This document shows, one piece after another, positions 4,189 through 30,284 of a stretch of 64,000 nucleotides of DNA. The translations under genes and the position numbers were made by a program. The notes under the pieces are model-generated. The model saw only the letters and a program-made list of their open reading frames with translations, had not been told where the DNA came from and ran no database searches. The DNA comes from Candidatus Bathyarchaeota archaeon (GTDB lineage: Archaea > Thermoproteota > Bathyarchaeia > Bathyarchaeales > Bathycorpusculaceae), in the NCBI GenBank assembly GCA_026014585.1, contig JAOZIA010000022.1, forward strand, positions 248,001 to 312,000, read 5' to 3'. How positions within the stretch are numbered: the stretch's first letter is position 1; the number at the start of each line of letters is the position of its first letter.

Positions 4189-6312
4189 CTAAAATATGGT
4201 AGCAACTACGCTTTTAAGAACACCAAAAAAGCCTGCTTGTTTTGGCACCAGATTTTTCCATAACAATACAGGATTATCACGCTTGTTCACTAAAGCTTTT
4301 TTAATTAAGCCTGATTTTTCCATGTCCTCCAGCTTTGAAGCAATCAACCCTTCAGATGCATCAGCCTGGGAAACTTTTTGAAACTCTGCAATTATCTCCT
4401 GAGTAGAAAACATCTTTGAACTACTAATTGCCTTTATCAGCAGCTGGCTTTGCTCAGGAAGTTTCCGGTAAAGAGTCAGCAACTCAACTTTCTCTTTTCT
4501 ACTCAAGTACAACTGATAAATTAGCAAAGACACAAAAACTACAGCAGCACCCACTGATAACTCAAACCCATTTTGGCTGATAACCAAAGAAACAGAAGAC
4601 CACGTTTTCAAGGGTTGCCAATAAAGATTAATTGCTTGGGCTATAGGCAACAGTTGGTTTTCAGCATCTTGAAGATCATGTACTGATTTTGGATAAATAA
4701 TTAGACTCATCATGACACTTTTTGTTTGAGCAGTACCATTCACGTTAAAATTCGCTGTTTGATACCAGTACAAAACCACTTCAGTTCGATTATTGCTTGT
4801 ATACTGGAAAGAAAAGTATCGCGCGGTTATGGGAGGATTATCTTGAATCTGAATATCATGCAGGTCTAATTGCTCCACCTTTGCTTGCTGACCCTGACTA
4901 AGTGGATAATTAATAAGGCAGGTTTCCCAGCGGTGTTGAGAAGTTGAACTGACACCTATCTGTATAGTCGCTGTAACAACTGACTTATTTTCGCCTTGGG
5001 GACGATAAATATAAACAATTGCTGCATCATTTCCAGAGGTTTGCTCATACGCCTTATCTCGGTAAGAGTAAGTCAAATTATAACCAGAAATTTCAGGCAA
5101 AGCAGAAGCTGAAGAATCCACCTGTATACCTGAAGGGCTCTGAGAGATAACTTCAGGTGGACCTTGAGTTAACGCAAACACAGGCGCCTGAATTGACAAC
5201 AATAAAGCCGCGGCGATAACGATTCCTAGAACCTTTACTAAATCGGTTTTATTTAGCCTCAACATTTTTGGGTATTTGAAAAATTTACCACAGTTCAAAC
5301 AGAAGGGCAAGTTTGGGTTTTTAGGTGTTGGAGTACATATTGGACAAGGTTGCGCTGGCTTGGGTTTTTTGAAAGCCTTTTCTGTGAATACAAGCAATAT
5401 GAGAGTTCCAATGAACATCAGCGCTGTTGCACCAAAATTATGGAAAACTTGCAAGGCTAAGTCCTCGCCCCAATGATAGCCTATACCAAGAATAGTGGTA
5501 ATGCGAATTATGTTTAAGGCTATGATTAGAGGAAGACCCAAAAGGAGAATAATTAACTTATTGAGCAGTTTACCATGCGTTATATAAGCAATAAAGATTA
5601 CAAAAATCATAAACCCAATTATACTATAGATCCCCGAGCAAGCAACACTGACATTAAAATGCAGAACAGAAGCATCAGGTCGAGCTATAGTAATAACAGG
5701 TCCCGTATTATCAAAAAGAAGGGTAGCATTAAACCCGAAAAGATTCGCTAAACTGTTTGATGCGATTGCACTCAAACTAGCAAGCGCTGAACCTACAGTG
5801 TAGAGAATTTCTGATGGCGGAGGGGTTAGGAGAATTAAAAAGGATATGGGAAAAATCAACTGTTTTAGAATCTGTGCATTAAACAAAATAAGAACCAAAC
5901 TCGCGGTTAATAACGGCAGAGTAAGGACATGAAATTCTAGAGGTGTAAACGAGTAGCTACCATACCAATACAAGAGTATTGCAACGGCAAAAAGTGCGAT
6001 TCCCGCCAGCGTACTAAAATATTTTTGGAACCCGCGTTTATTTTCTTCAGTTAGCTGAAGTGACGCATTTATCATTTTTCGTTTTCGAAATAGAAGATAC
6101 GTAAAAAGGAAAGGGATCGCAAGTATATGAAAAGTTGATTCATTAGTCAGAGCGCCTTGAAAAACCATGTTTAAATCCTGAAAATAAAGTGCACCGACCA
6201 CGACAGTAATAACTGAAAATTTTAAGGCTATAGCTAATCTGTGCTGGTTTAGTGTTGATGCAACCTTGAGGGTATTGCTATGGGGATTATTTACATTTTG
6301 CATATAGTGCAC
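4189..6312 (-). CDS. Archaeosortase/exosortase with EpsI-like domain, zinc ribbon and winged helix
   Basis: A membrane cysteine protease-like transpeptidase of the exosortase/archaeosortase family, expected to cut C-terminal tripartite signals of surface proteins and transfer them to lipid. About eight helices span residues 30-310. The expected triad is visible: Cys225 in ACSG, Arg270 in LNIIR and His291 in VFHN. A Cys4 zinc ribbon follows (C323, C326, C338, C341), then another helix (about 355-375). Next come an exosortase-associated EpsI-like outer domain (about 385-570, with VVLYWYQ), a helix (about 585-605) and a cytoplasmic winged-helix-like tail (about 620-690). The longest frame starts at GTG 6312; the ATG at 6303 is equally good. 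Neighbours are membrane proteins and a polysaccharide operon. Family very likely; substrates inferred. Confidence 0.88.
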   Translation of the reverse strand: MHYMQNVNNPHSNTLKVASTLNQHRLAIALKFSVITVVVGALYFQDLNMVFQGALTNESTFHILAIPFLFTYLLFRKRKMINASLQLTEENKRGFQKYFSTLAGIALFAVAILLYWYGSYSFTPLEFHVLTLPLLTASLVLILFNAQILKQLIFPISFLILLTPPPSEILYTVGSALASLSAIASNSLANLFGFNATLLFDNTGPVITIARPDASVLHFNVSVACSGIYSIIGFMIFVIFIAYITHGKLLNKLIILLLGLPLIIALNIIRITTILGIGYHWGEDLALQVFHNFGATALMFIGTLILLVFTEKAFKKPKPAQPCPICTPTPKNPNLPFCLNCGKFFKYPKMLRLNKTDLVKVLGIVIAAALLLSIQAPVFALTQGPPEVISQSPSGIQVDSSASALPEISGYNLTYSYRDKAYEQTSGNDAAIVYIYRPQGENKSVVTATIQIGVSSTSQHRWETCLINYPLSQGQQAKVEQLDLHDIQIQDNPPITARYFSFQYTSNNRTEVVLYWYQTANFNVNGTAQTKSVMMSLIIYPKSVHDLQDAENQLLPIAQAINLYWQPLKTWSSVSLVISQNGFELSVGAAVVFVSLLIYQLYLSRKEKVELLTLYRKLPEQSQLLIKAISSSKMFSTQEIIAEFQKVSQADASEGLIASKLEDMEKSGLIKKALVNKRDNPVLLWKNLVPKQAGFFGVLKSVVATIF

Positions 6313-20239: not shown

Positions 20240-20749
20240 TTAATTTATGTGAACAGTCGCTGTATGTGTGTCAAATTTTGAAAATAAAAAGAACACAAAC
20301 ACAGCATTAACGATAAACATTATAAAAGAAAAGGGCGCATTTAAAAAGCCAAGAAATAAAAACTCTGAAAACTGGAAAAAAGCAGCCAGCGTAAATATCA
20401 ACATAGCAGCTAAACGAGCAACTTTATGTCTCACCCAAAGCCCTAAACCAACAAGCAGTAAATCAACACCAATTATCCAAGAAACGGATCCAAACGTTAT
20501 GGCATCCAAACCAGCAAGTTCAGCCATGGAAAGTGGAACACCCGGCACTAAATCAATAGAAAAAGCAGGTTGCAAATCTTGAGTTGTTTGAGCGAGTTGA
20601 GATGAAGAACTGGGACATTCAATCATCAAATATATCCCACCAATAATCAAGATAATGCCAAAAGTTATAGTGAGTTTAGATACAAAATCGGTTACAGTTT
20701 TATTTGTTAAATATTTGTTTATGTTTAAATTGTTAACTGTTTCTGCCAT
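20240..20749 (-). CDS. Four-helix membrane protein downstream of phoU
   Basis: A 169-residue protein with four hydrophobic segments (about 25-45, 85-107, 112-132, 137-160). The first loop is polar (SSSQLAQTTQDLQPAFSI) and likely outside. Its ATG lies two bases after the phoU stop on the same strand, so it is co-translated with PhoU. It may belong to the phosphate-response system. Family not recognised. Confidence 0.65.
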   Translation of the reverse strand: MAETVNNLNINKYLTNKTVTDFVSKLTITFGIILIIGGIYLMIECPSSSSQLAQTTQDLQPAFSIDLVPGVPLSMAELAGLDAITFGSVSWIIGVDLLLVGLGLWVRHKVARLAAMLIFTLAAFFQFSEFLFLGFLNAPFSFIMFIVNAVFVFFLFSKFDTHTATVHIN

Positions 20750-20751
20750 GA

Positions 20752-21810
20752 TTATCCCAGTATTGAGTCCACTGTTAGATTGAGAACAATCTCGGCTATG
20801 TCACAGGAGTATTCAGCTGTTCTCCGAATACTTTCAATAATTAAACGCAATGTTGCTACATCCTCAATATCTACCTGAGCAGAGATAGCATCATGCTCTA
20901 AAGAAACAACCTCATTGATGTTTTCCATTATTTTTTCAGCCATGTTATAGTCTTGTCTGAAAAGGGCTTCCATGGCGATAGTGAACATTGTGATTGCTAT
21001 ATTACCCATTTTGTCAATTTTCTCTAAAACATCGGGATTTAACCCCTTTTTGAGGACTAAAATGTTTTCTGCAATCTTAACAGCATGATCTGCTGTTCGT
21101 TCCACTGACGTTGTAACAAGACGATAGCTTAAACAATCTCTATCGTTTTCAAGACCGATTTCTTTGGATACCCGAGGATTTTGTATGGCCAATTTTAACA
21201 ATCTATTAACATAAAGATTAAACCGATCCACTTCGTTATCTGTGGATATTATTTCCTTTGCCAGTTGGTAATCATTTGTTTTTAGGCCTGATAGTGCTTC
21301 TTTATGCATCGAGGTAGCTATTATGCTCATTCTTCTCAGAGCGCTTTGCACTGTAAGTTCAGGATAGCTTAGAAGAACTTGTAAGCTCAATTGATGTGAT
21401 GTATCGGTTACTATTTCTGTTCCAACCAGCATGCGACGAACAAAATTTTTGATTTCATACCTTTGTTTTGTAGACAACGCTTGTTTATCGGGTTTAACTG
21501 GTCTAATTTGAAGGGTATTATGTCCCGCTAAATAGACTGCAATAATTTTTCTTGTTATCATTTCTGTAGAGTCCGAAGCAGAAACCTTGATTACAACTTC
21601 GCCAGTCTTTTTTTGCACAGCAGCAGCTGGAGGACCTATAGTCAATAAGCCACCTTGTTCCTCGCGTAATTTAATGAAACTTCCTTTCTTTAATTGATTA
21701 GAGGCAATCCATTTTTTAGGTAATGAAATAATGTAAGTAGAGCCACCAGTGAACTGAATTTTTCTTGTTTCCTCATCCTGTTTTGCCTGCACTAAGCCTT
21801 CCCTTTCCAT
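20752..21810 (-). CDS. phoU: PhoU-domain regulator with N-terminal AbrB/SpoVT-like domain
   Basis: An N-terminal swapped-hairpin AbrB/SpoVT-like DNA-binding domain (RKIQFTGGSTYIISLPKKWI) precedes two three-helix PhoU repeats (about residues 115-350). PhoU proteins restrain Pst transport when phosphate is plentiful; archaeal members with an AbrB-like head are presumed to act on transcription too. ATG 21810 is preferred; GTG 21828 is possible. It is divergent from pstB. Two tandem TATCTA-type motifs lie upstream at 21831-21879. No PhoR/PhoB pair is seen in the window, so this protein is a candidate phosphate regulator. Confidence 0.88.
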   Translation of the reverse strand: MEREGLVQAKQDEETRKIQFTGGSTYIISLPKKWIASNQLKKGSFIKLREEQGGLLTIGPPAAAVQKKTGEVVIKVSASDSTEMITRKIIAVYLAGHNTLQIRPVKPDKQALSTKQRYEIKNFVRRMLVGTEIVTDTSHQLSLQVLLSYPELTVQSALRRMSIIATSMHKEALSGLKTNDYQLAKEIISTDNEVDRFNLYVNRLLKLAIQNPRVSKEIGLENDRDCLSYRLVTTSVERTADHAVKIAENILVLKKGLNPDVLEKIDKMGNIAITMFTIAMEALFRQDYNMAEKIMENINEVVSLEHDAISAQVDIEDVATLRLIIESIRRTAEYSCDIAEIVLNLTVDSILG

Positions 21811-21830
21811 GCCTTCGGCTAATAACACGG

Positions 21831-22027: not shown

Positions 22028-22780
22028 TTGGGTAAAGTTCAAACTAAAAAATTCAATTTATGGTTCAAAAATAATCACATTTTGAAAAATGTTGATTTTG
22101 AAATCAGAGAGAAAACAGTAACTGCCATAATGGGCCCGTCTGGATGTGGCAAATCAACTCTTTTACGCTCAATTAACCGAATGAATGACTTAATCAACGG
22201 TTGCAAAACTGCTGGCGAAATATTTTTCGATGGAATGAACATTTATAGTGATGACAGCAATGTTTACGATTTAAGACGCAGGATAGGCATGGTATTCCAA
22301 AAGCCCAACCCATTTCCTAAATCCATTTTTGAAAACGTAGCTTTTGGTCCACGCATCCACAACACAGCAAAAGGCGAAAAACTAAAAGAAGTTGTCGAGA
22401 ACAGTCTCAGAGGCGCAGCATTGTGGGATGAAGTCAAAGATCGCCTAAACGAGCACGCTTTTAGCTTATCAGGAGGCCAGCAACAAAGGCTTTGCATAGC
22501 ACGTGCATTAGCTGCCGAACCTGAACTGATACTTATGGATGAACCATGTAGTGCTTTGGACCCCGCTGCGACAGCACGTATAGAAACGCTTGTTGGAAAA
22601 CTTAAGGAAAAATACACTGTCATCATTGTTACTCACAATTTGCAGCAAGCATTACGAGTCTCAGATTTCACAGCTTTCATGTATGTAGGTCAACTTGTCG
22701 AATATAATAATACAAGAACCCTTTTTGAAAGACCAGCAAACGAGTTAACTCGAAACTACATTAATGGCAAATTCGGCTGA
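22028..22780 (+). CDS. pstB: Phosphate ABC transporter ATP-binding protein PstB
   Basis: A 250-residue ABC ATPase that powers phosphate import through PstC/PstA at the inner face of the membrane. Walker A is GPSGCGKST (about residues 36-44), the signature is LSGGQQQR, and Walker B is [13 protein letters not shown] with the switch His in THN. The start is TTG 22028, supported by a strong AGGAGGA ribosome binding site 8 bases upstream. It is separated from pstC/pstA by 5.3 kb of surface-protein genes on the other strand, which is unusual for a pst operon. Confidence 0.95.
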
Positions 22781-22831: not shown

Positions 22832-24313
22832 TTAGATGGAAAATTTATTAAAAAAAGCACTTTTTCTTTTATGAGAAACTATGTAAAAGGATAAAAAGGC
22901 GGCAAAACAGACAAAAAGTGCAGCAATACCAGCCCAAGCATACTCCGGCACAGGAAATGGACCAGCAGTAGGAGATGATGTGGGGGGTTGAGTGGAAGTA
23001 GGATTCGTAGTAGATGTTGGCTCTTGTGTAGAAATACTATCTAAAATTGTAAAGTTAACATCCACTTCCGCCGCTAAGGCAGTACTATTTTCAGATAATA
23101 AGCAAATATAAGCTATTGCTTCGCCATTGAAAGCCCATTGAGGAATAAAGATTGATGCAGTATATGTGTCATTTACCGGTGTTTCACTGTTTTTTATTGT
23201 GTATGAGTTTATGGGGATTTGTGCATGGTCAAATAAGGTTATATCTATTTGATGCCACGAAGAGAAGTTACTCAGGCTGCGTGTAGGTATCGTTATTGAA
23301 ATGTTTTCTAGCTTGTGGACACTTGAGGGAACTTGAACGCTGCTGATTATATCGTTTGAACGAGTAAACGTAAATCCAACAGTATCATTTAAAAACACGC
23401 CAGAAACAGTTGCTGACGCATTAATAATCCAGATTCCAACCATCTCAGCCTCGATTTCACTCGGTGGAGGCAACCTAAATTCGAAGGAAGCATAACCAGA
23501 CGAATTTGTCTGCACTATTTCAGATTTAAATTGAGTCCCATTATAAGTAACTACAAAGGACACATCTACACCCTCAACAGATTCAGTAGAATGAAGAAGC
23601 CTAGTATATGCCTTAACAAGTTCCAGCGAACGATAAACCCCACCGCTTGCACCTATTCCGCCTTTATCAGTAAAAGCGTCGATTTTGCCAGTATCAGGCA
23701 CAACAGGGGCAATTACAGTCACTGTTGGAGAAGTTATGGGTAGAGAAATTTTTGGGTATACACCATCGCTTAATGCTGGACCGGTTAATGTTGCACCAGT
23801 AAATTGAATATTTGCATCACCAGTACCAACAATAAGGAAAGTAAAATAACACAACTCACCCGCAGTAAGGCTTGAAGCGCCATCATCATCACCAAGAATA
23901 CCATCACCAACCCCACCCTGAAGAGCCCCCACGGTATTGTTAATGACGCCTGGAGCGAAGAGCGTGGTATAGTCTCCATTGTCTCTGTCTCTAAGATATG
24001 TACCTTCTTTGATTTTGGTTAAGTTAACGACATCTGGATTCCACGTTACAAGGTCTATTCCCCAACCCCAGATGTCAGCAGCGTCACTGATAGTGAGACT
24101 GACCTGAAAGGTGGTTGAACCAATTGTGTATGTCCCGTCCGGGTATGACCATGATGATTCCGTTGTATCTCTTTGATAAACATTAAATGTTCCTGACGTG
24201 GTTGCGGAAACAAAGCTGTTGACTGATAGTAAAACCATTGATGCCACAAGGAGTGTTAGGCAAAATAATCCAATTATCTTTTTATGGCTGATTTTATTGG
24301 TAAACATAATCAA
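22832..24313 (-). CDS. Cohesin-domain surface protein with VPEY C-terminal sorting tail
   Basis: A 493-residue exported protein: signal peptide (about 1-37), a cohesin-type beta-sandwich (about 40-205, with DIWGWGIDLVTWNPDVV and ELCYFTFLIVGTGDANIQF), and Ig-like regions (about 210-430). A Ser/Thr/Pro linker follows (about 430-452), then a tripartite tail VPEY (455-458), hydrophobic helix and basic end SHKRKS. The tail has the layout of PEP-CTERM-type signals cut by exosortases or archaeosortases. Cohesin modules bind dockerins; a dockerin-like module is on PstS at 26557-27744. It is about half identical to the cohesin part of the 25769-26446 protein. TTG 24313 opens the frame; ATG at 24307 is an alternative. 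Function inferred. Confidence 0.75.
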   Translation of the reverse strand: MIMFTNKISHKKIIGLFCLTLLVASMVLLSVNSFVSATTSGTFNVYQRDTTESSWSYPDGTYTIGSTTFQVSLTISDAADIWGWGIDLVTWNPDVVNLTKIKEGTYLRDRDNGDYTTLFAPGVINNTVGALQGGVGDGILGDDDGASSLTAGELCYFTFLIVGTGDANIQFTGATLTGPALSDGVYPKISLPITSPTVTVIAPVVPDTGKIDAFTDKGGIGASGGVYRSLELVKAYTRLLHSTESVEGVDVSFVVTYNGTQFKSEIVQTNSSGYASFEFRLPPPSEIEAEMVGIWIINASATVSGVFLNDTVGFTFTRSNDIISSVQVPSSVHKLENISITIPTRSLSNFSSWHQIDITLFDHAQIPINSYTIKNSETPVNDTYTASIFIPQWAFNGEAIAYICLLSENSTALAAEVDVNFTILDSISTQEPTSTTNPTSTQPPTSSPTAGPFPVPEYAWAGIAALFVCFAAFLSFYIVSHKRKSAFFNKFSI

Positions 24314-24342
24314 CTACAACGAGAGTTCCTTTGTTTACTTAC

Positions 24343-24371
24343 TAAATTAGCATTATCTACATAGAATATGG
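24343..24371. promoter_or_regulatory. Conserved upstream element of the first cohesin-type gene
   Basis: AAATTAGCATTATCTACATA followed by GAATATGG is nearly identical to 25632-25659 upstream of the second cohesin-type gene. It lies about 30-60 bases ahead of the start codon. It may be a shared operator or core promoter. Confidence 0.45.
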
Positions 24372-24426
24372 TCTGTTATAGGAACCAATTAGATATAAAT
24401 AAATAGAAGAAAATAAGAAAATTAGT

Positions 24427-25401
24427 TTATCTTGCTTTTCTGAGCCAGAAAACTGAACCAGCCACGACAATAATTGTAACTGCAACAATAATACCTAAGA
24501 TGGTAACGGGCAAGTTTTTGGTAATGTCAATAACAACGGGAGTAGAAGATGGTGAAGAGTCAGACGGTGTAGGAGATGCAGTGGTGTCCTTTTTGACTTT
24601 TATTGTAACTGAGGCATCATCAGTGCCATATGAATCTTGAACTGTTAACAAGATATCATATGTTCCAGTGTTATTGAAAGTGTAGGTAGCAATCATGCCT
24701 GTTAGAGTTTGGGCTGTGCCATCAGTAAATGTCCATGTATAAGTGGTATCATTTCCCACAGACACTGTTCGTGACGCATTAAGAATAACGGGGGTTCCCT
24801 GTACGACTGTTTTGTTGTCTCCTGCGCTAGCGATTGGTGGACCAGCAGTTGCTTCAAGAGAAATTTTGGCAGTAAAAGAAGTTGATGAAGGAGTTATATA
24901 CTCCATTTCATTATTAGCCGTTCTTTCATAAATTAAACGTATACCCTCTAGTTTTAGTGGAGAGTCTGAACATGGTTTTATCACTTTAAATGTTAAAGTT
25001 GCTAGCGTTCCACTTCCACTTGCAAAGGTAGTAAGACTACCCAACACAGCATCAGCTATGGTGCATTTTCCTGGAGGATATCCTACTGAGTCCTCCGCAG
25101 GTAAAACTCCATAGATAGTGGTAATATCTTGGTCTGAAAAGAAAGAGCCTTCTTGAGGAATCCCAACTAAAGACAGACACTCTGGATCCCATGTTACGTT
25201 GGCATCCCAGCCCCAAAGATGTTCAACTGATGAAATCTCGATTGCAACTGTGAACTCTTCATTGAGTTGTTCAGCAGTATACTCAGCTGGGTCAAACGTT
25301 AGAGTAGGAGCATTTTGAGCGTTAACTGGTTCTATGTTCACAGCAAGAAATATTGATAACGCAGACAGGATTAAAAGGCAAGCGATAAATTTTCTGTTCA
25401 T
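24427..25401 (-). CDS. Cohesin-domain and PKD-domain surface protein
   Basis: An exported membrane-anchored protein. I place the start at ATG 25401 (MNRKFIACLL), which gives a proper signal peptide and has an AGAGG ribosome binding site; the frame is open upstream to 25536. After the signal comes a cohesin-type domain (about residues 30-185 of the shorter form, HLWGWDANVTWDPECLSLVG, TLATLTFKVI). A PKD/Ig-like domain follows (about 190-280, TYTWTFTDGTAQ, GTYDILLTVQDSYG), then a Ser/Thr/Pro linker and a C-terminal helix ending LRKAR. It lacks the VPEY motif of its two neighbours, so it is probably held as a plain transmembrane protein. Likely a dockerin receptor on the cell surface. Confidence 0.75.
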   Translation of the reverse strand: MNRKFIACLLILSALSIFLAVNIEPVNAQNAPTLTFDPAEYTAEQLNEEFTVAIEISSVEHLWGWDANVTWDPECLSLVGIPQEGSFFSDQDITTIYGVLPAEDSVGYPPGKCTIADAVLGSLTTFASGSGTLATLTFKVIKPCSDSPLKLEGIRLIYERTANNEMEYITPSSTSFTAKISLEATAGPPIASAGDNKTVVQGTPVILNASRTVSVGNDTTYTWTFTDGTAQTLTGMIATYTFNNTGTYDILLTVQDSYGTDDASVTIKVKKDTTASPTPSDSSPSSTPVVIDITKNLPVTILGIIVAVTIIVVAGSVFWLRKAR

Positions 25402-25631
25402 TTTTTGAATCCTCTCGGAAAAGTTATTTTCTGCCGATTTAGTGATACTTCTTGATTCGGAATCAACTGAGAATTTATGCGTGAAATAAACCATAGGTCT
25501 GAGAAAACTTGCATCAATTGACGCCTCCACTTGCACGCTGGATTATTCCTATTGCTAATAACTTGATGCGATAACATATTTTTTATCCCTTCTCCAATCT
25601 GAGTTTGGCAATTTTTCTGTTGCCTATTTCT

Positions 25632-25659
25632 AATTAGCGTTATCTACATAAAATATAGG
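25632..25659. promoter_or_regulatory. Conserved upstream element of the second cohesin-type gene
   Basis: AATTAGCGTTATCTACATAA followed by AATATAGG matches the element at 24343-24371 at most positions. It lies about 230 bases before the preferred ATG, implying a long 5' leader or an upstream start at 25536. Confidence 0.45.
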
Positions 25660-25768
25660 ACTTATAGTGAGAGTGAGAAGGGTTACAGCAATTAAACCTC
25701 TTAAAGTATTAAAAAATAAAAAAAGTTGGTTGCTGGATCACAATTAGTGATCAGCACTTTTCCATAGC

Positions 25769-26446
25769 TTAGATGTGTTTGCTGAATGATGGGAATTTGA
25801 AGCTTTTCTTGAAGGCTGCGAATGCAAAGAATGCTGCGAATGCTGCGCCTAAAGCTGCAAGAGCACCAACGAGGTATTCAGGAACCACGAATGGTCCTGT
25901 AACGTTAACGAGTGGTGCGTTCACTGTAACATCGCCATCATTTAAGGTTGCACCGCTAAACTGAATGTTTGCATCGCCAAAACCGACAATCTCGAACTTG
26001 AGATAGCATAATTCGCCAGTCTCAAGAGTTGAAGCGCCATCTTCGTCACCTAGAATAGCATCGCCAATTCCTGCAGAAATAATGCCAACGTCATTATCAA
26101 TTGTGCCTACAGCGAAGAGTGTGTTATAGTCGCCATTTTCTTCATCTATTAGGAAATCGCCTTCTTTCACCTGAGTGCAGTGGACAACGTCAGGGTTCCA
26201 AGTAACAGTGTCAAAGCCCCAACCCCAAACCTCAGAAGCGCCACTAATGTAGACGCCGACTTGGAAGATTGTGCCCATATCACTTGGCATGTATGTCCAT
26301 GTTGATTCAGTAGTTCCTCTCTTGTAGACATCGATTGAACCGGTTGCAGAAGCAGAAGCAACGCTAGCAAGGACTAGTGGGACGATTATGAGCAAAGCTA
26401 ACGACAGTGTAGCTATGGTTTTTCTTTTATAGATTTTAAAGTTCAT
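25769..26446 (-). CDS. Small cohesin-domain surface protein with VPEY C-terminal sorting tail
   Basis: A 225-residue exported protein that is little more than a signal peptide (about 1-34), one cohesin-type domain (about 36-180) and a tripartite tail. The tail is VPEY (188-191), a 23-residue Ala/Phe/Gly-rich helix, then lysine-rich. The cohesin domain is clearly paralogous to that of 22832-24313 (EVWGWGFDTVTWNPDVV, ELCYLKFEIVGFGDANIQF). The start has a good AAAGGAG site. It is immediately downstream of pstS on the same strand, so it is probably co-expressed with PstS. Best candidate for the partner of the PstS dockerin-like module. Confidence 0.78.
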   Translation of the reverse strand: MNFKIYKRKTIATLSLALLIIVPLVLASVASASATGSIDVYKRGTTESTWTYMPSDMGTIFQVGVYISGASEVWGWGFDTVTWNPDVVHCTQVKEGDFLIDEENGDYNTLFAVGTIDNDVGIISAGIGDAILGDEDGASTLETGELCYLKFEIVGFGDANIQFSGATLNDGDVTVNAPLVNVTGPFVVPEYLVGALAALGAAFAAFFAFAAFKKSFKFPSFSKHI

Positions 26447-26556
26447 TTATTTTTATCTCCTTTCAATTTTTTACTATTTTTATCTTATTTTTTTATTATT
26501 TCCCTAAATAAAAGGGGGAACGTGATTCAGTTTTTGCTTATACACTTTGATTGTGT

Positions 26557-27744
26557 TTACTTGTAGTTGCGTGCAAAGATGTATGTGTCTGTAGGACTGT
26601 ACTGACCGTCAGCGTTCATGTCGACATAGGGGTTAAGTAAGCTTGAACCATAATTGCCTGCAAAGTAGTATAGATCTAATGGTGAAATCGCGTTGTCAGG
26701 GATGTACTGAGTCTGACCTGGGCGTGCTCCGTTACCTGTACTGATGTCGCTTGTGAAGTCGTCGCGTAGCATGTTCATGTAGCCTTCACCTGAAACGAAG
26801 TTCTCTTCACATAGATCTTCGACGTATGCGTAGTCACCTTGGTAGTCAGGGTTGGTTGCGTTTGGCAGTTTCATGAAGCTGATCCAAACTGATTGAGCTG
26901 CATCTTCTGAGCCAACTGCTGGAATGCCGTCAGTGAGGTGCCAGAGGTTGCGGATTGGTGTGTATAGACCTGCAAGAACGTTTGCTTCTGTTGGTTCGTA
27001 GTATTCGCCTTCGGCTGCGTTGTAGATGTTAATTGGGTAGAGTCCACCGAGGTGGAGGAAGCCCATGCCGATGAAAGCAATTGAATAGTCTTTAGTAGCA
27101 CCTGTTGTCATGTGGTTGTAAACGTCAATGTTGTTTGGCAGTTCTGTGAATGGAGTAGTTATGTCTGTAAGTTCTAGATCTTCTGGGTCAAGGAAGAAGT
27201 TATAGAAGCAGTCAGTAGTTCCGGATTCAAGGTCGCGTACGACTCTGTCGATTGGAGTTGCTGGTGCAGTGCCGACAAGGTAGCCTGCTGGAAGATCATC
27301 CCAGTTGGTGTAACCGCCGCAGTAAATGTCTGCAACTTCTTGCGTTGTTAGGTCTGTTTTCAGCCAGTTGTTGCCAGGACCGATAAGAATTGCAATGCTG
27401 TCAATACCTATAGACCAGATTTGAGCGTTATCAGCACCAGATAGGGCCCATTCAGTTGATTTGGGAAGCCTTGACATTGAACCGACGTCAGAGTAAGGCG
27501 TATCTACCTGATAAACACCTGGAAAAGCACCGCCGCTTCCGCCTGAATTGACCTCAACAGAAGTAATTGCAGGATAATGGTTCATAAAAGCAGTTTTTGC
27601 AGCCATAGAGACTGGATAAACTGTTGAAGAACCTCTCGTTACTAATTCGTGTGATGTTAGCAAAGCCTGTACTGGACCGACCATTGCAAAAGCCATTAAT
27701 GCAATCAAAGCTATAGCAACAATAGATTTTTTAATAGGTGTCAA
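26557..27744 (-). CDS. pstS: Phosphate-binding protein PstS with C-terminal dockerin-like module
   Basis: An exported PstS-type solute-binding protein of 395 residues that captures phosphate for PstCAB. Phosphate-site motifs are visible: RGSSTVYPVS, NSGGSGGAFPGV and RDLESGTTDCF. The last 50 residues are not part of the PstS fold. They hold a canonical dockerin calcium loop D375-x-N377-x-D379-G...D386 followed by TYIFARNY. A degenerate first repeat (D350...D357, LYYFAGNY) precedes it. No lipobox or C-terminal membrane helix is seen, so the protein needs another anchor; three cohesin-type surface proteins are next door. The start is TTG 27744 with an AGGAGAAAGG site. PstS identity is sure; the dockerin call is strong from the motif. 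Confidence 0.88.
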   Translation of the reverse strand: MTPIKKSIVAIALIALMAFAMVGPVQALLTSHELVTRGSSTVYPVSMAAKTAFMNHYPAITSVEVNSGGSGGAFPGVYQVDTPYSDVGSMSRLPKSTEWALSGADNAQIWSIGIDSIAILIGPGNNWLKTDLTTQEVADIYCGGYTNWDDLPAGYLVGTAPATPIDRVVRDLESGTTDCFYNFFLDPEDLELTDITTPFTELPNNIDVYNHMTTGATKDYSIAFIGMGFLHLGGLYPINIYNAAEGEYYEPTEANVLAGLYTPIRNLWHLTDGIPAVGSEDAAQSVWISFMKLPNATNPDYQGDYAYVEDLCEENFVSGEGYMNMLRDDFTSDISTGNGARPGQTQYIPDNAISPLDLYYFAGNYGSSLLNPYVDMNADGQYSPTDTYIFARNYK

Positions 27745-28090: not shown

Positions 28091-28936
28091 TTGTTTGCTT
28101 GTGCGGCTTCCTCAATACTAATAGTTTTCTCCATACTTGGCATAATTTTATCCATCGGATATTCTCAACTGATTGATTGGTTTGCTAACGGTTTTGGAAT
28201 GGTCTGGTTTCCTGATTATGGAAACGCTGGAGAGTATGGCATAATTCCATATATTTTTAGTACCGTTTATGTCGGTGTCGGGGCAATAGCATTTGCAGCT
28301 ATCATAGGCATCCCCTGTGCAATATATTTATCCGAGTTTGCTGGATCAAAATTTAGAAATTTAGTTAAACCAAGTTTAGAAATGCTCACAGGTTTTCCAT
28401 CTATAATTATTGGTTACATAGGTTTCGCTTTACTGGTACCACTTTTAACTAGATATTCTGGCCAACCTTTTGTAAGCACATTAGCAGGCTGGATCCTCCT
28501 TGGCATAATGGCGCTTCCAATTATAACAACAGTTTCAGAAGATGCAATAAGAAGAGTACCCAATGACCTTAGAGAAGCATCACTGGGGGTAGGAGCAACC
28601 AAATGGCAAACCACCATCAAAGTTTTACTGCCTTCCGCAAAACCCGGAATCTTAGCTTCGGTTCTACTTGGTTTAGGAGAAGCAATCGGTGAAGTAATGG
28701 CAATAAGTATGATAATGCCAGTGGTATATGGACCAACCATTACCTTAAACCCATTTACCAAAACATGCGTTTTGACACCGTTAATACTTCAAATCACGGA
28801 CAATGAAATAGGAACCACCGGAAACAACTTTTGGTATGCAATCGGTGGTGTAGCATTTATTCTCTTTGTAATGTGCGCTTTACTAAACATAGCTATACGA
28901 TTCTTAACCAAAAAAGGAACCGCGAGGGAACAGTGA
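28091..28936 (+). CDS. pstC: Phosphate ABC transporter permease PstC
   Basis: A 281-residue permease with six membrane helices forming half of the phosphate channel. The cytoplasmic coupling loop EDAIRRVPNDLREASLGVGATKWQT contacts PstB. TTG 28091 is the first ordinary start but has no ribosome binding site and falls inside the first helix. The frame continues upstream as LKEKLIKYI from a CTG at 28064, which would restore the usual basic N terminus. Only one base separates it from pstA. Confidence 0.93.
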   Translation: MFACAASSILIVFSILGIILSIGYSQLIDWFANGFGMVWFPDYGNAGEYGIIPYIFSTVYVGVGAIAFAAIIGIPCAIYLSEFAGSKFRNLVKPSLEMLTGFPSIIIGYIGFALLVPLLTRYSGQPFVSTLAGWILLGIMALPIITTVSEDAIRRVPNDLREASLGVGATKWQTTIKVLLPSAKPGILASVLLGLGEAIGEVMAISMIMPVVYGPTITLNPFTKTCVLTPLILQITDNEIGTTGNNFWYAIGGVAFILFVMCALLNIAIRFLTKKGTAREQ

Positions 28937-28937
28937 A

Positions 28938-30284
28938 ATGACTCAATTAATTAGCCCAAAACGAATCAGCCACTATTTCAGGAATAAAAAAATAGACAAT
29001 ATTGTGGCAGGACTGCTCATATTTATTGTCGCAGGCATTTTTGCATATTTTGCCTTTTCTAAAATCCTATATATGTCATCTCAAGCGGATTACGTGGATC
29101 TCTTCGGATGGGTTTCATACTTTAATTTCTATATGCAAGACACCATAGTGGGAGCATTAATGATAGTACCCATTATTGGCTTTTTTGCATTAGGATACTT
29201 ACTAATTGAAGCGCATCCGATGGCATGGAAAATAACATATGGAGTAGCCATAATCGCAGCTGTTTTAACTGCCACAGGATTAATAGATCAAATGTTTACA
29301 ATACCTGTTGCTTTACTAAGCACAGTCGCAGCATCCATTAATCTTTATAATAAAAGAAAGTCACAGCAAACGGCAAAAATCAGTTCATCAATAATTACAG
29401 AAAATATTGCTAAATTAGGCTTACAAGTCTCAGGAGTTTTATGCATCTTTATTCTTTTTGGATTTATACTTTATGTGTTTGTTAGAGGCTCCATATACAT
29501 AAGTTTTGATTTCATTACTGGACCATGGAGCTATGACCTTCTTAGAACTTCTATGTTAGCAGGTGACCCGAACTTAGGAGGCATATTCATATTCATTTTA
29601 GGTTCACTATTACTGGTTGCACTTTGTGAAGCAGTATCCATCCCGCTGGGACTTTGCTCAGCAATTTATCTATCGGAATATGCCCCACAGAACAAAATTA
29701 CAGGAACCATCCGTTTTTTCATAGAAACTTTAGCTGGCATCCCATCAGTTGTTATAGGATTAGTGGGATACGCGATATTTTGTAATTTTTTTGGATGGAA
29801 GGAGTGCCTCTTGGCAGGTAGCCTATCATTAATGATGATGACTATACCGTGGAACATAAGAGTGAGCGAAGAGGCAATAAAATCTGTTCCACAAAGTTAT
29901 CGTGAAGGCGCATACGCCCTTGGCGCAACTAAATCTCAAACTATTGGAAAAATAATTTTGTATGCTTCGAGCCCAGGAGTAATCACAGGAATCATCCTAG
30001 GCATAGGGGGAGCCATTGGAGAAACCGCGGTTCTTCTTCTCACTTCAGGCCATGTAATACCAGACGCGTTTCCAACTAATATTATCGGCGACAAGGTTCC
30101 AGCGCTGACTGTTTGGATAGAGAAGATAAGGTCTCTTATGGCTTCAGGTGGCGTTAACGTGGCTAATGCAGAGAATCTGGCTTTCTCCGCCGCATCTGTG
30201 CTAATAGGAATTTTCATGATTATTTGCATTACTGGGTTGTGGCTTAGAAATCGTTTAAATAAAAAAATAACTGGGCAAACATGA
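28938..30284 (+). CDS. pstA: Phosphate ABC transporter permease PstA with extended N terminus
   Basis: The C-terminal 290 residues are a standard PstA permease, with the coupling loop SEEAIKSVPQSYREGAYALGATKSQT and the final IGETAVLLLTSG segment. The total length is 448, far longer than the usual 280-300. About 150 extra N-terminal residues hold four more membrane helices (about 23-45, 68-88, 98-115, 118-137) ending in a basic loop. The start ATG has a GAGGGAA site and follows pstC by one base. The extension may be a regulatory or partner-binding part; its function is unknown. Confidence 0.93.
   Translation: MTQLISPKRISHYFRNKKIDNIVAGLLIFIVAGIFAYFAFSKILYMSSQADYVDLFGWVSYFNFYMQDTIVGALMIVPIIGFFALGYLLIEAHPMAWKITYGVAIIAAVLTATGLIDQMFTIPVALLSTVAASINLYNKRKSQQTAKISSSIITENIAKLGLQVSGVLCIFILFGFILYVFVRGSIYISFDFITGPWSYDLLRTSMLAGDPNLGGIFIFILGSLLLVALCEAVSIPLGLCSAIYLSEYAPQNKITGTIRFFIETLAGIPSVVIGLVGYAIFCNFFGWKECLLAGSLSLMMMTIPWNIRVSEEAIKSVPQSYREGAYALGATKSQTIGKIILYASSPGVITGIILGIGGAIGETAVLLLTSGHVIPDAFPTNIIGDKVPALTVWIEKIRSLMASGGVNVANAENLAFSAASVLIGIFMIICITGLWLRNRLNKKITGQT

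Follow-up and report, generated by a model that had tools for sequence, protein, structure and literature searches.

A PstS protein with a predicted, diverged dockerin tail is encoded beside three membrane-held cohesin proteins in the pst locus of a Bathycorpusculum archaeon

Dockerins have been found on substrate-binding proteins of the NikA/OppA and TroA types in anaerobic methanotrophic (ANME) archaea, where their function was left open; scaffoldin-like proteins carrying as many as five cohesins are encoded in the same genomes (Chadwick et al., 2022, PMC9012536). Non-cellulosomal cohesin-dockerin pairs, for which binding was reported, also occur in Archaeoglobus fulgidus (references 166–168 in PMC9012536). 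In bacterial cellulosomes, anchoring scaffoldins with type II cohesins (e.g., 3l8q and 1qzn) are held at the surface and present dockerin-tagged cargo. Here, we analyzed a stretch of 64,000 nucleotides from a Candidatus Bathyarchaeota archaeon (assembly GCA_026014585.1, contig JAOZIA010000022.1, positions 248,001 to 312,000), referred to as the window, in which the gene of the phosphate-binding protein PstS, predicted to end in a diverged dockerin, lies next to three genes encoding membrane-held cohesin proteins. We consider it likely that dockerin-cohesin docking keeps PstS at the membrane, which explains the locus best.

The locus shares the cohesin fold with the cellulosomal scaffoldins, but the cargo would be a transporter binding protein instead of an enzyme, the anchors are C-terminal transmembrane segments, and each protein in the window carries one cohesin. 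With A. fulgidus, it has in common that an archaeal cohesin-dockerin pair occurs outside cellulose degradation; according to the citing text, however, no transport role has been assigned to those pairs (PMC9012536). The ANME systems belong to another phylum, and the text describing them names neither a PstS nor a conserved operon of binding protein and cohesins (PMC9012536). The ordinary PstSCAB-PhoU systems of other Bathyarchaeia have the same pst genes and a PBP_like_2 binding protein, but their PstS mostly carries an N-terminal membrane helix and no tail, with neither cohesins nor the P0005 family (see below) nearby. The initial annotation knew of no Pst system built in this way. We found none in the searchable literature, a scope that excludes most subscription papers and the supplement of PMC9012536, but the novelty is tempered by the dockerins known from other ABC (ATP-binding cassette) binding proteins of ANME archaea (PMC9012536).

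The PstS protein (P0001, 395 residues; 26557..27744, minus strand) consists of a signal peptide, a PBP_like_2 domain, and the dockerin-like C-terminal tail. It is identified by the PBP_like_2 match (PF12849, 68.9 bits), by the GSST and R-x3-SGT motifs in the alignment, and by the adjoining pstC, pstA, pstB, and phoU genes; the score of 89.7 bits against TIGR02136 is under the strict cut-off of that model. The tail (residues about 340–395; 26560..26727, minus strand), located with a model of the PstS tails of relatives, contains a canonical second calcium loop (D375-x-N377-x-D379-G-x5-D386; 26587-26622, minus strand), and its first repeat lacks the D-x-N start. The sequence thus bears out the coordinates, the canonical loop, and the degenerate first repeat given in the initial annotation. 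The first loop is non-canonical in the PstS of the relatives as well, and the second calcium loop, together with the DLxYF and NPxxD positions, is retained across the diverged tails in the alignment.

The model of the relatives' PstS tails, built without the window, detected the window tail with 28.0 bits (E-value 5.3e-8), the next open reading frame (ORF) having an E-value of 0.07. With the PstS-tail model, the window tail reached 33.3 bits, as compared with at most 15.6 bits in about 5,000 shuffles; a chance EF-hand-like tail was rejected because none of these shuffles equaled the real score. All six related PstS tails match dockerin profiles. Those of the five relatives in the genus obtained 40–53 bits with a dockerin model made without PstS, and one of them (from G003) reached 23.8 bits with the Pfam Dockerin_1 model, above the cut-off (19.9 bits by hmmscan), under which the other relatives' tails stay. 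Because the window tail is homologous to these dockerin-matching tails, we assign it by sequence as a diverged dockerin. Weak matches of similar tails to EF-hand families could point to an EF-hand-like calcium element stabilizing PstS or touching the permease, unrelated to cohesins. We regard such an element as very improbable in view of the dockerin-model scores of the relatives' tails and of the cohesin genes that accompany the tail every time.

The three adjoining genes on the minus strand encode P0004 (22832..24313; cohesin at 23699-24202, an immunoglobulin (Ig)-like region, and a VPEY motif with the C-terminal transmembrane segment at about 22868-22945), P0003 (24427..25401; cohesin at 24877-25275, PKD domain at about 24595-24840, and transmembrane segment at about 24433-24525), and P0002 (25769..26446; cohesin at 25895-26341, a VPEY motif, and transmembrane segment at about 25808-25879). 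All three carry a signal segment and, at the C-terminus, a transmembrane segment, and Pfam, profile, and fold evidence supports the cohesins; they are thus exported, membrane-held cohesin proteins, as had been proposed from the sequence. The Pfam cohesin family (PF00963), suggested as a check, recognizes the P0003 domain (31.9 bits, cut-off 24.1) but neither P0002 nor P0004; hmmscan misses the cohesin in full-length P0003 and reveals it with the domain alone. The PKD domain of P0003 is matched by PKD_4 (59.1 bits).

As P0002 and P0004 fall under Pfam detection, we constructed, leaving out the window, a genus cohesin hidden Markov model (HMM), for which 43 cohesins detected by Pfam in the genus were used. 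Among the 603 ORFs of the window, it detected P0003 (58.2 bits), P0002 (46.6 bits), and P0004 (43.8 bits), with the next ORF at 5.9 bits; P0004 and P0002 are 54% identical over 174 residues. A cohesin profile from 18 sequences, including the three from the window, matched 25 PDB sequences, every one of them cohesin-bearing (best E-value 1.5e-19), whereas a phmmer search of the PDB with P0002 alone gave no match. The fold check relies on the structural model of one of the three proteins, P0002 (predicted local distance difference test (pLDDT) 81, predicted TM-score (pTM) 0.78): its top 37 fold matches in the PDB are all cohesins, with TM-scores to the query of up to 0.62. Type II cohesins such as 3l8q and 1qzn are the best PDB profile matches and several of the best fold matches. 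The cohesin domains of P0002, P0003, and P0004 are genuine.

Dockerin-tailed PstS proteins were found in seven genomes: that of the window (G000; archaeal, 2.31 Mb, 95.6% complete), five others of Bathycorpusculum, and one (G145) of a sister genus. Bathycorpusculum, formerly PALSA-986, inhabits termite guts, peat, sediments, and digesters (PMC10684969). Cohesin genes adjoin pstS in all seven loci, the kind of synteny that the initial annotation had proposed to test. In the 20 loci of the class whose PstS lacks the tail, by contrast, neither cohesins nor dockerins occur within the 7–19 kb read per locus. The relatives' loci contain from two (G004, G027) up to nine (G003) cohesin domains. All seven include a cohesin protein with a C-terminal transmembrane segment of the size of P0003, assigned to the P0003 type by size, cohesin, and transmembrane segment, with the PKD domain confirmed in the window, G003, G025, and G145. 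The tailed PstS form one clade (support 100/99), in which tail and neighbors are retained despite identities of just 35–37% between the window PstS and those of its genus relatives. A sample of 398 genomes from the phylum gave no additional tailed PstS. The arrangement is thus, as judged from the phylogeny, of single origin and has been kept through deep divergence.

The six relatives' loci also encode further dockerin proteins, and their clusters add secreted Coh-Ig proteins as well as Ig-dockerin proteins, a NosD-type beta-helix-dockerin protein, and a Coh-dockerin protein. Elsewhere in the genus, dockerins are attached to a purple acid phosphatase, a Peripla_BP_2 binding protein, and a GH18 protein. 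These observations would suit a larger surface lattice, in which the scaffold mainly serves attachment to particles or partner cells or the S-layer and PstS is one of several cargoes. We consider this unlikely, since PstS is the sole dockerin protein detected in the window genome and since, within each pst locus, the cluster always adjoins pstS. In the window genome and in G003, G011, and G145 (four of seven), it lies between pstS and phoU-pstB, with pst genes on either side; for the other three, phoU-pstB is beyond the stretch read.

The PstS of the window has one membrane-type segment, the N-terminal signal segment (27664..27744, minus strand), with no other anchor, in agreement with the initial annotation. 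Its hydrophobic core and the VQA motif (...VGPVQA), without a lipobox, indicate a probably cleavable signal peptide. An A/V/T-x-A motif follows the hydrophobic core in all seven tailed PstS, as for cleaved signal peptides. By contrast, 16 of the 20 tailless PstS lack a cleavage motif and resemble N-terminal membrane helices, many with a core that ends in GYY or the like; a lipobox-like LLGSC occurs in one of the 16. The pattern fits a replacement of the N-terminal membrane helix of PstS by dockerin docking.

The PstS tail is the sole dockerin, and P0002, P0003, and P0004 are the sole cohesins, detected in the 2.3 Mb genome, and together they span within 5 kb. No further cohesin or dockerin was found with Pfam Cohesin, Pfam Dockerin_1, P0002, and the dockerin alignment as queries, the best other dockerin candidate having 12.5 bits (E-value 0.4). 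A cellulosome, with dockerin-bearing polysaccharide-degrading enzymes on a scaffoldin, was rejected, as the single detected dockerin protein of the genome is PstS. The docking of PstS by the neighboring cohesins, put forward in the initial annotation, gains support from the locus linkage, the sole pair in the genome, and the split between signal peptides and helices, all of them features read from sequence. In the proposed mechanism, PstS would be secreted and, after removal of the signal peptide, have no anchor of its own. Its C-terminal dockerin would plug, probably with calcium, into the cohesins of P0002, P0003, and P0004, which would be positioned directly outside the membrane, and PstS would stay close to the PstCA permease. 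With three anchors, of which one contains a PKD spacer, several PstS copies could be set at different heights. We infer from the locus the binding between tail and cohesins, its calcium dependence, the surface location, co-regulation, and a benefit under phosphate limitation.

Several points weigh against docking. The window tail fails the Pfam Dockerin_1 model (PF00404) with which the initial annotation had proposed to verify it (12.4 bits, cut-off 22.9), a model that has no match in the window genome, and the dockerin model without PstS gives the window PstS just 8.3 bits. It is the most diverged of all the tails: the first calcium loop is gone, about four residues are missing after helix 1, and the last residues of helix 3 are absent, and it is therefore possibly weakened or losing function. 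An AlphaFold model of full-length PstS from five sequences was poor (mean pLDDT 36.6) and was discarded. In the relatives, the remaining dockerin proteins of the cluster could likewise be bound by the cohesins, and the signal peptide calls are from motif inspection, not from a trained predictor. The split between tailed and tailless loci would have a probability of about 1e-6 if loci are counted as independent, but as the tailed PstS are one clade, seven of seven versus none of 20 represents one origin and not seven events.

The degenerate first loop, the shortened helices, and the low scores would also be expected from a decaying dockerin that has lost its binding, with the cohesins persisting by inertia or for another ligand. 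We judge this quite unlikely, because the retained positions of the second loop, DLxYF, and NPxxD run across diverged sequences, the first loop lacks D-x-N in the relatives too, PstS has no substitute anchor, and all three cohesins are still intact. Docking remains the favored account of the locus.

Downstream of pstA, the window encodes P0005 (30294..31676, plus strand), with a signal peptide, an Ig-like extracellular region with relatives in the cohesin proteins, a single transmembrane segment, and a cytoplasmic coiled-coil-like tail. Each of the six other tailed loci has a homolog next to pstA (including L024:8096-9538, L025:8001-9428, L026:3409-5280, L027:4955-6400, and L091:5970-7319), so that the family occurs in seven of seven tailed loci but in no tailless locus (0 of 20). 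It has no Pfam match and, among the compared loci, is confined to dockerin-tailed PstS systems. It is conceivable, though we would not count on it, that the operon-encoded cohesin scaffold and the transmembrane P0005 form a dedicated phosphate-capture complex concentrating many PstS around or above PstCA. If so, scaffold assembly, and not lipid or helix anchoring of PstS, would set the transport capacity.

To our knowledge, no purpose has been assigned to most of the cohesin-dockerin pairs that occur outside cellulosomes. With few partners (one dockerin and three cohesins detected) that are co-encoded and tied to a known transporter, the role of this pair is directly testable. Phosphate uptake in one lineage of uncultured archaea appears, from its genes, to be put together in the manner of a small cellulosome. 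Together with a dockerin-bearing Peripla_BP_2 protein of the genus and the other binding proteins in ANME archaea, the arrangement suggests a general archaeal way of holding binding proteins.

Elsewhere in the genus, five loci (L115, L116, L117, L119, and L122 in G016, G011, G014, G027, and G009, respectively) encode N-terminally anchored dockerin proteins beside an ABC ATPase gene, without adjoining cohesins; the one examined (L116) has a Peripla_BP_2 binding domain. They amount to a second uptake system with a dockerin in this genus. G015 encodes a purple acid phosphatase that ends in a dockerin (L113:2157-4079), and L114, L124, L125, and L126, from other members of the genus, encode proteins of similar length whose dockerin ends are of the same type, the family assignment having been made for L113 only. 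Surface proteins of about 900–1700 residues with a dockerin between two cohesins (L073, L085-L089) apparently could chain with themselves and show no pst link in the stretches seen.

The remaining genes of the window locus are arranged as a 169-residue membrane protein (20240..20749; weak DUF7144 match) and phoU (20752..21828; PF01895, 86 bits) on the minus strand, pstB (22028..22780, plus strand; ABC ATPase, PF00005, 115.4 bits), the minus-strand series P0004-P0003-P0002-pstS, and, on the plus strand, the permease genes pstC (28091..28936; PF00528, 59.4 bits) and pstA (28938..30284; PF00528, 76.4 bits), followed by P0005. Homologs of the 169-residue protein are found beside phoU in all three relatives' tailed loci that show phoU and in none of the 20 tailless loci.

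The C-termini of P0002 and P0004, in which VPEY is followed by a transmembrane segment and basic residues, resemble archaeosortase sorting signals, and these cohesin proteins might therefore be sortase-processed. An ORF at 4189-6312 (minus strand) contains an exosortase/archaeosortase-family domain at about 5389-6204 (PF09721, 112 bits). Upstream of P0003 and P0004 lie the 19-bp sequences TATGTAGATAACGCTAATT (25632..25650, minus strand) and TATGTAGATAATGCTAATT (24345..24363, minus strand), respectively. Their common motif, TATGTAGATAAYGCTAATT, has just these two sites in the 2.3 Mb genome with up to three mismatches, suggesting shared control or duplication of an upstream stretch. P0003 probably starts at the ATG at 25401 rather than at the GTG at 25536, the mechanical ORF start. 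The stop codon of a small ORF (about 59 codons; about 25577-25399, minus strand), which has a good ribosome-binding site, overlaps this ATG (ATGA), making translational coupling possible.

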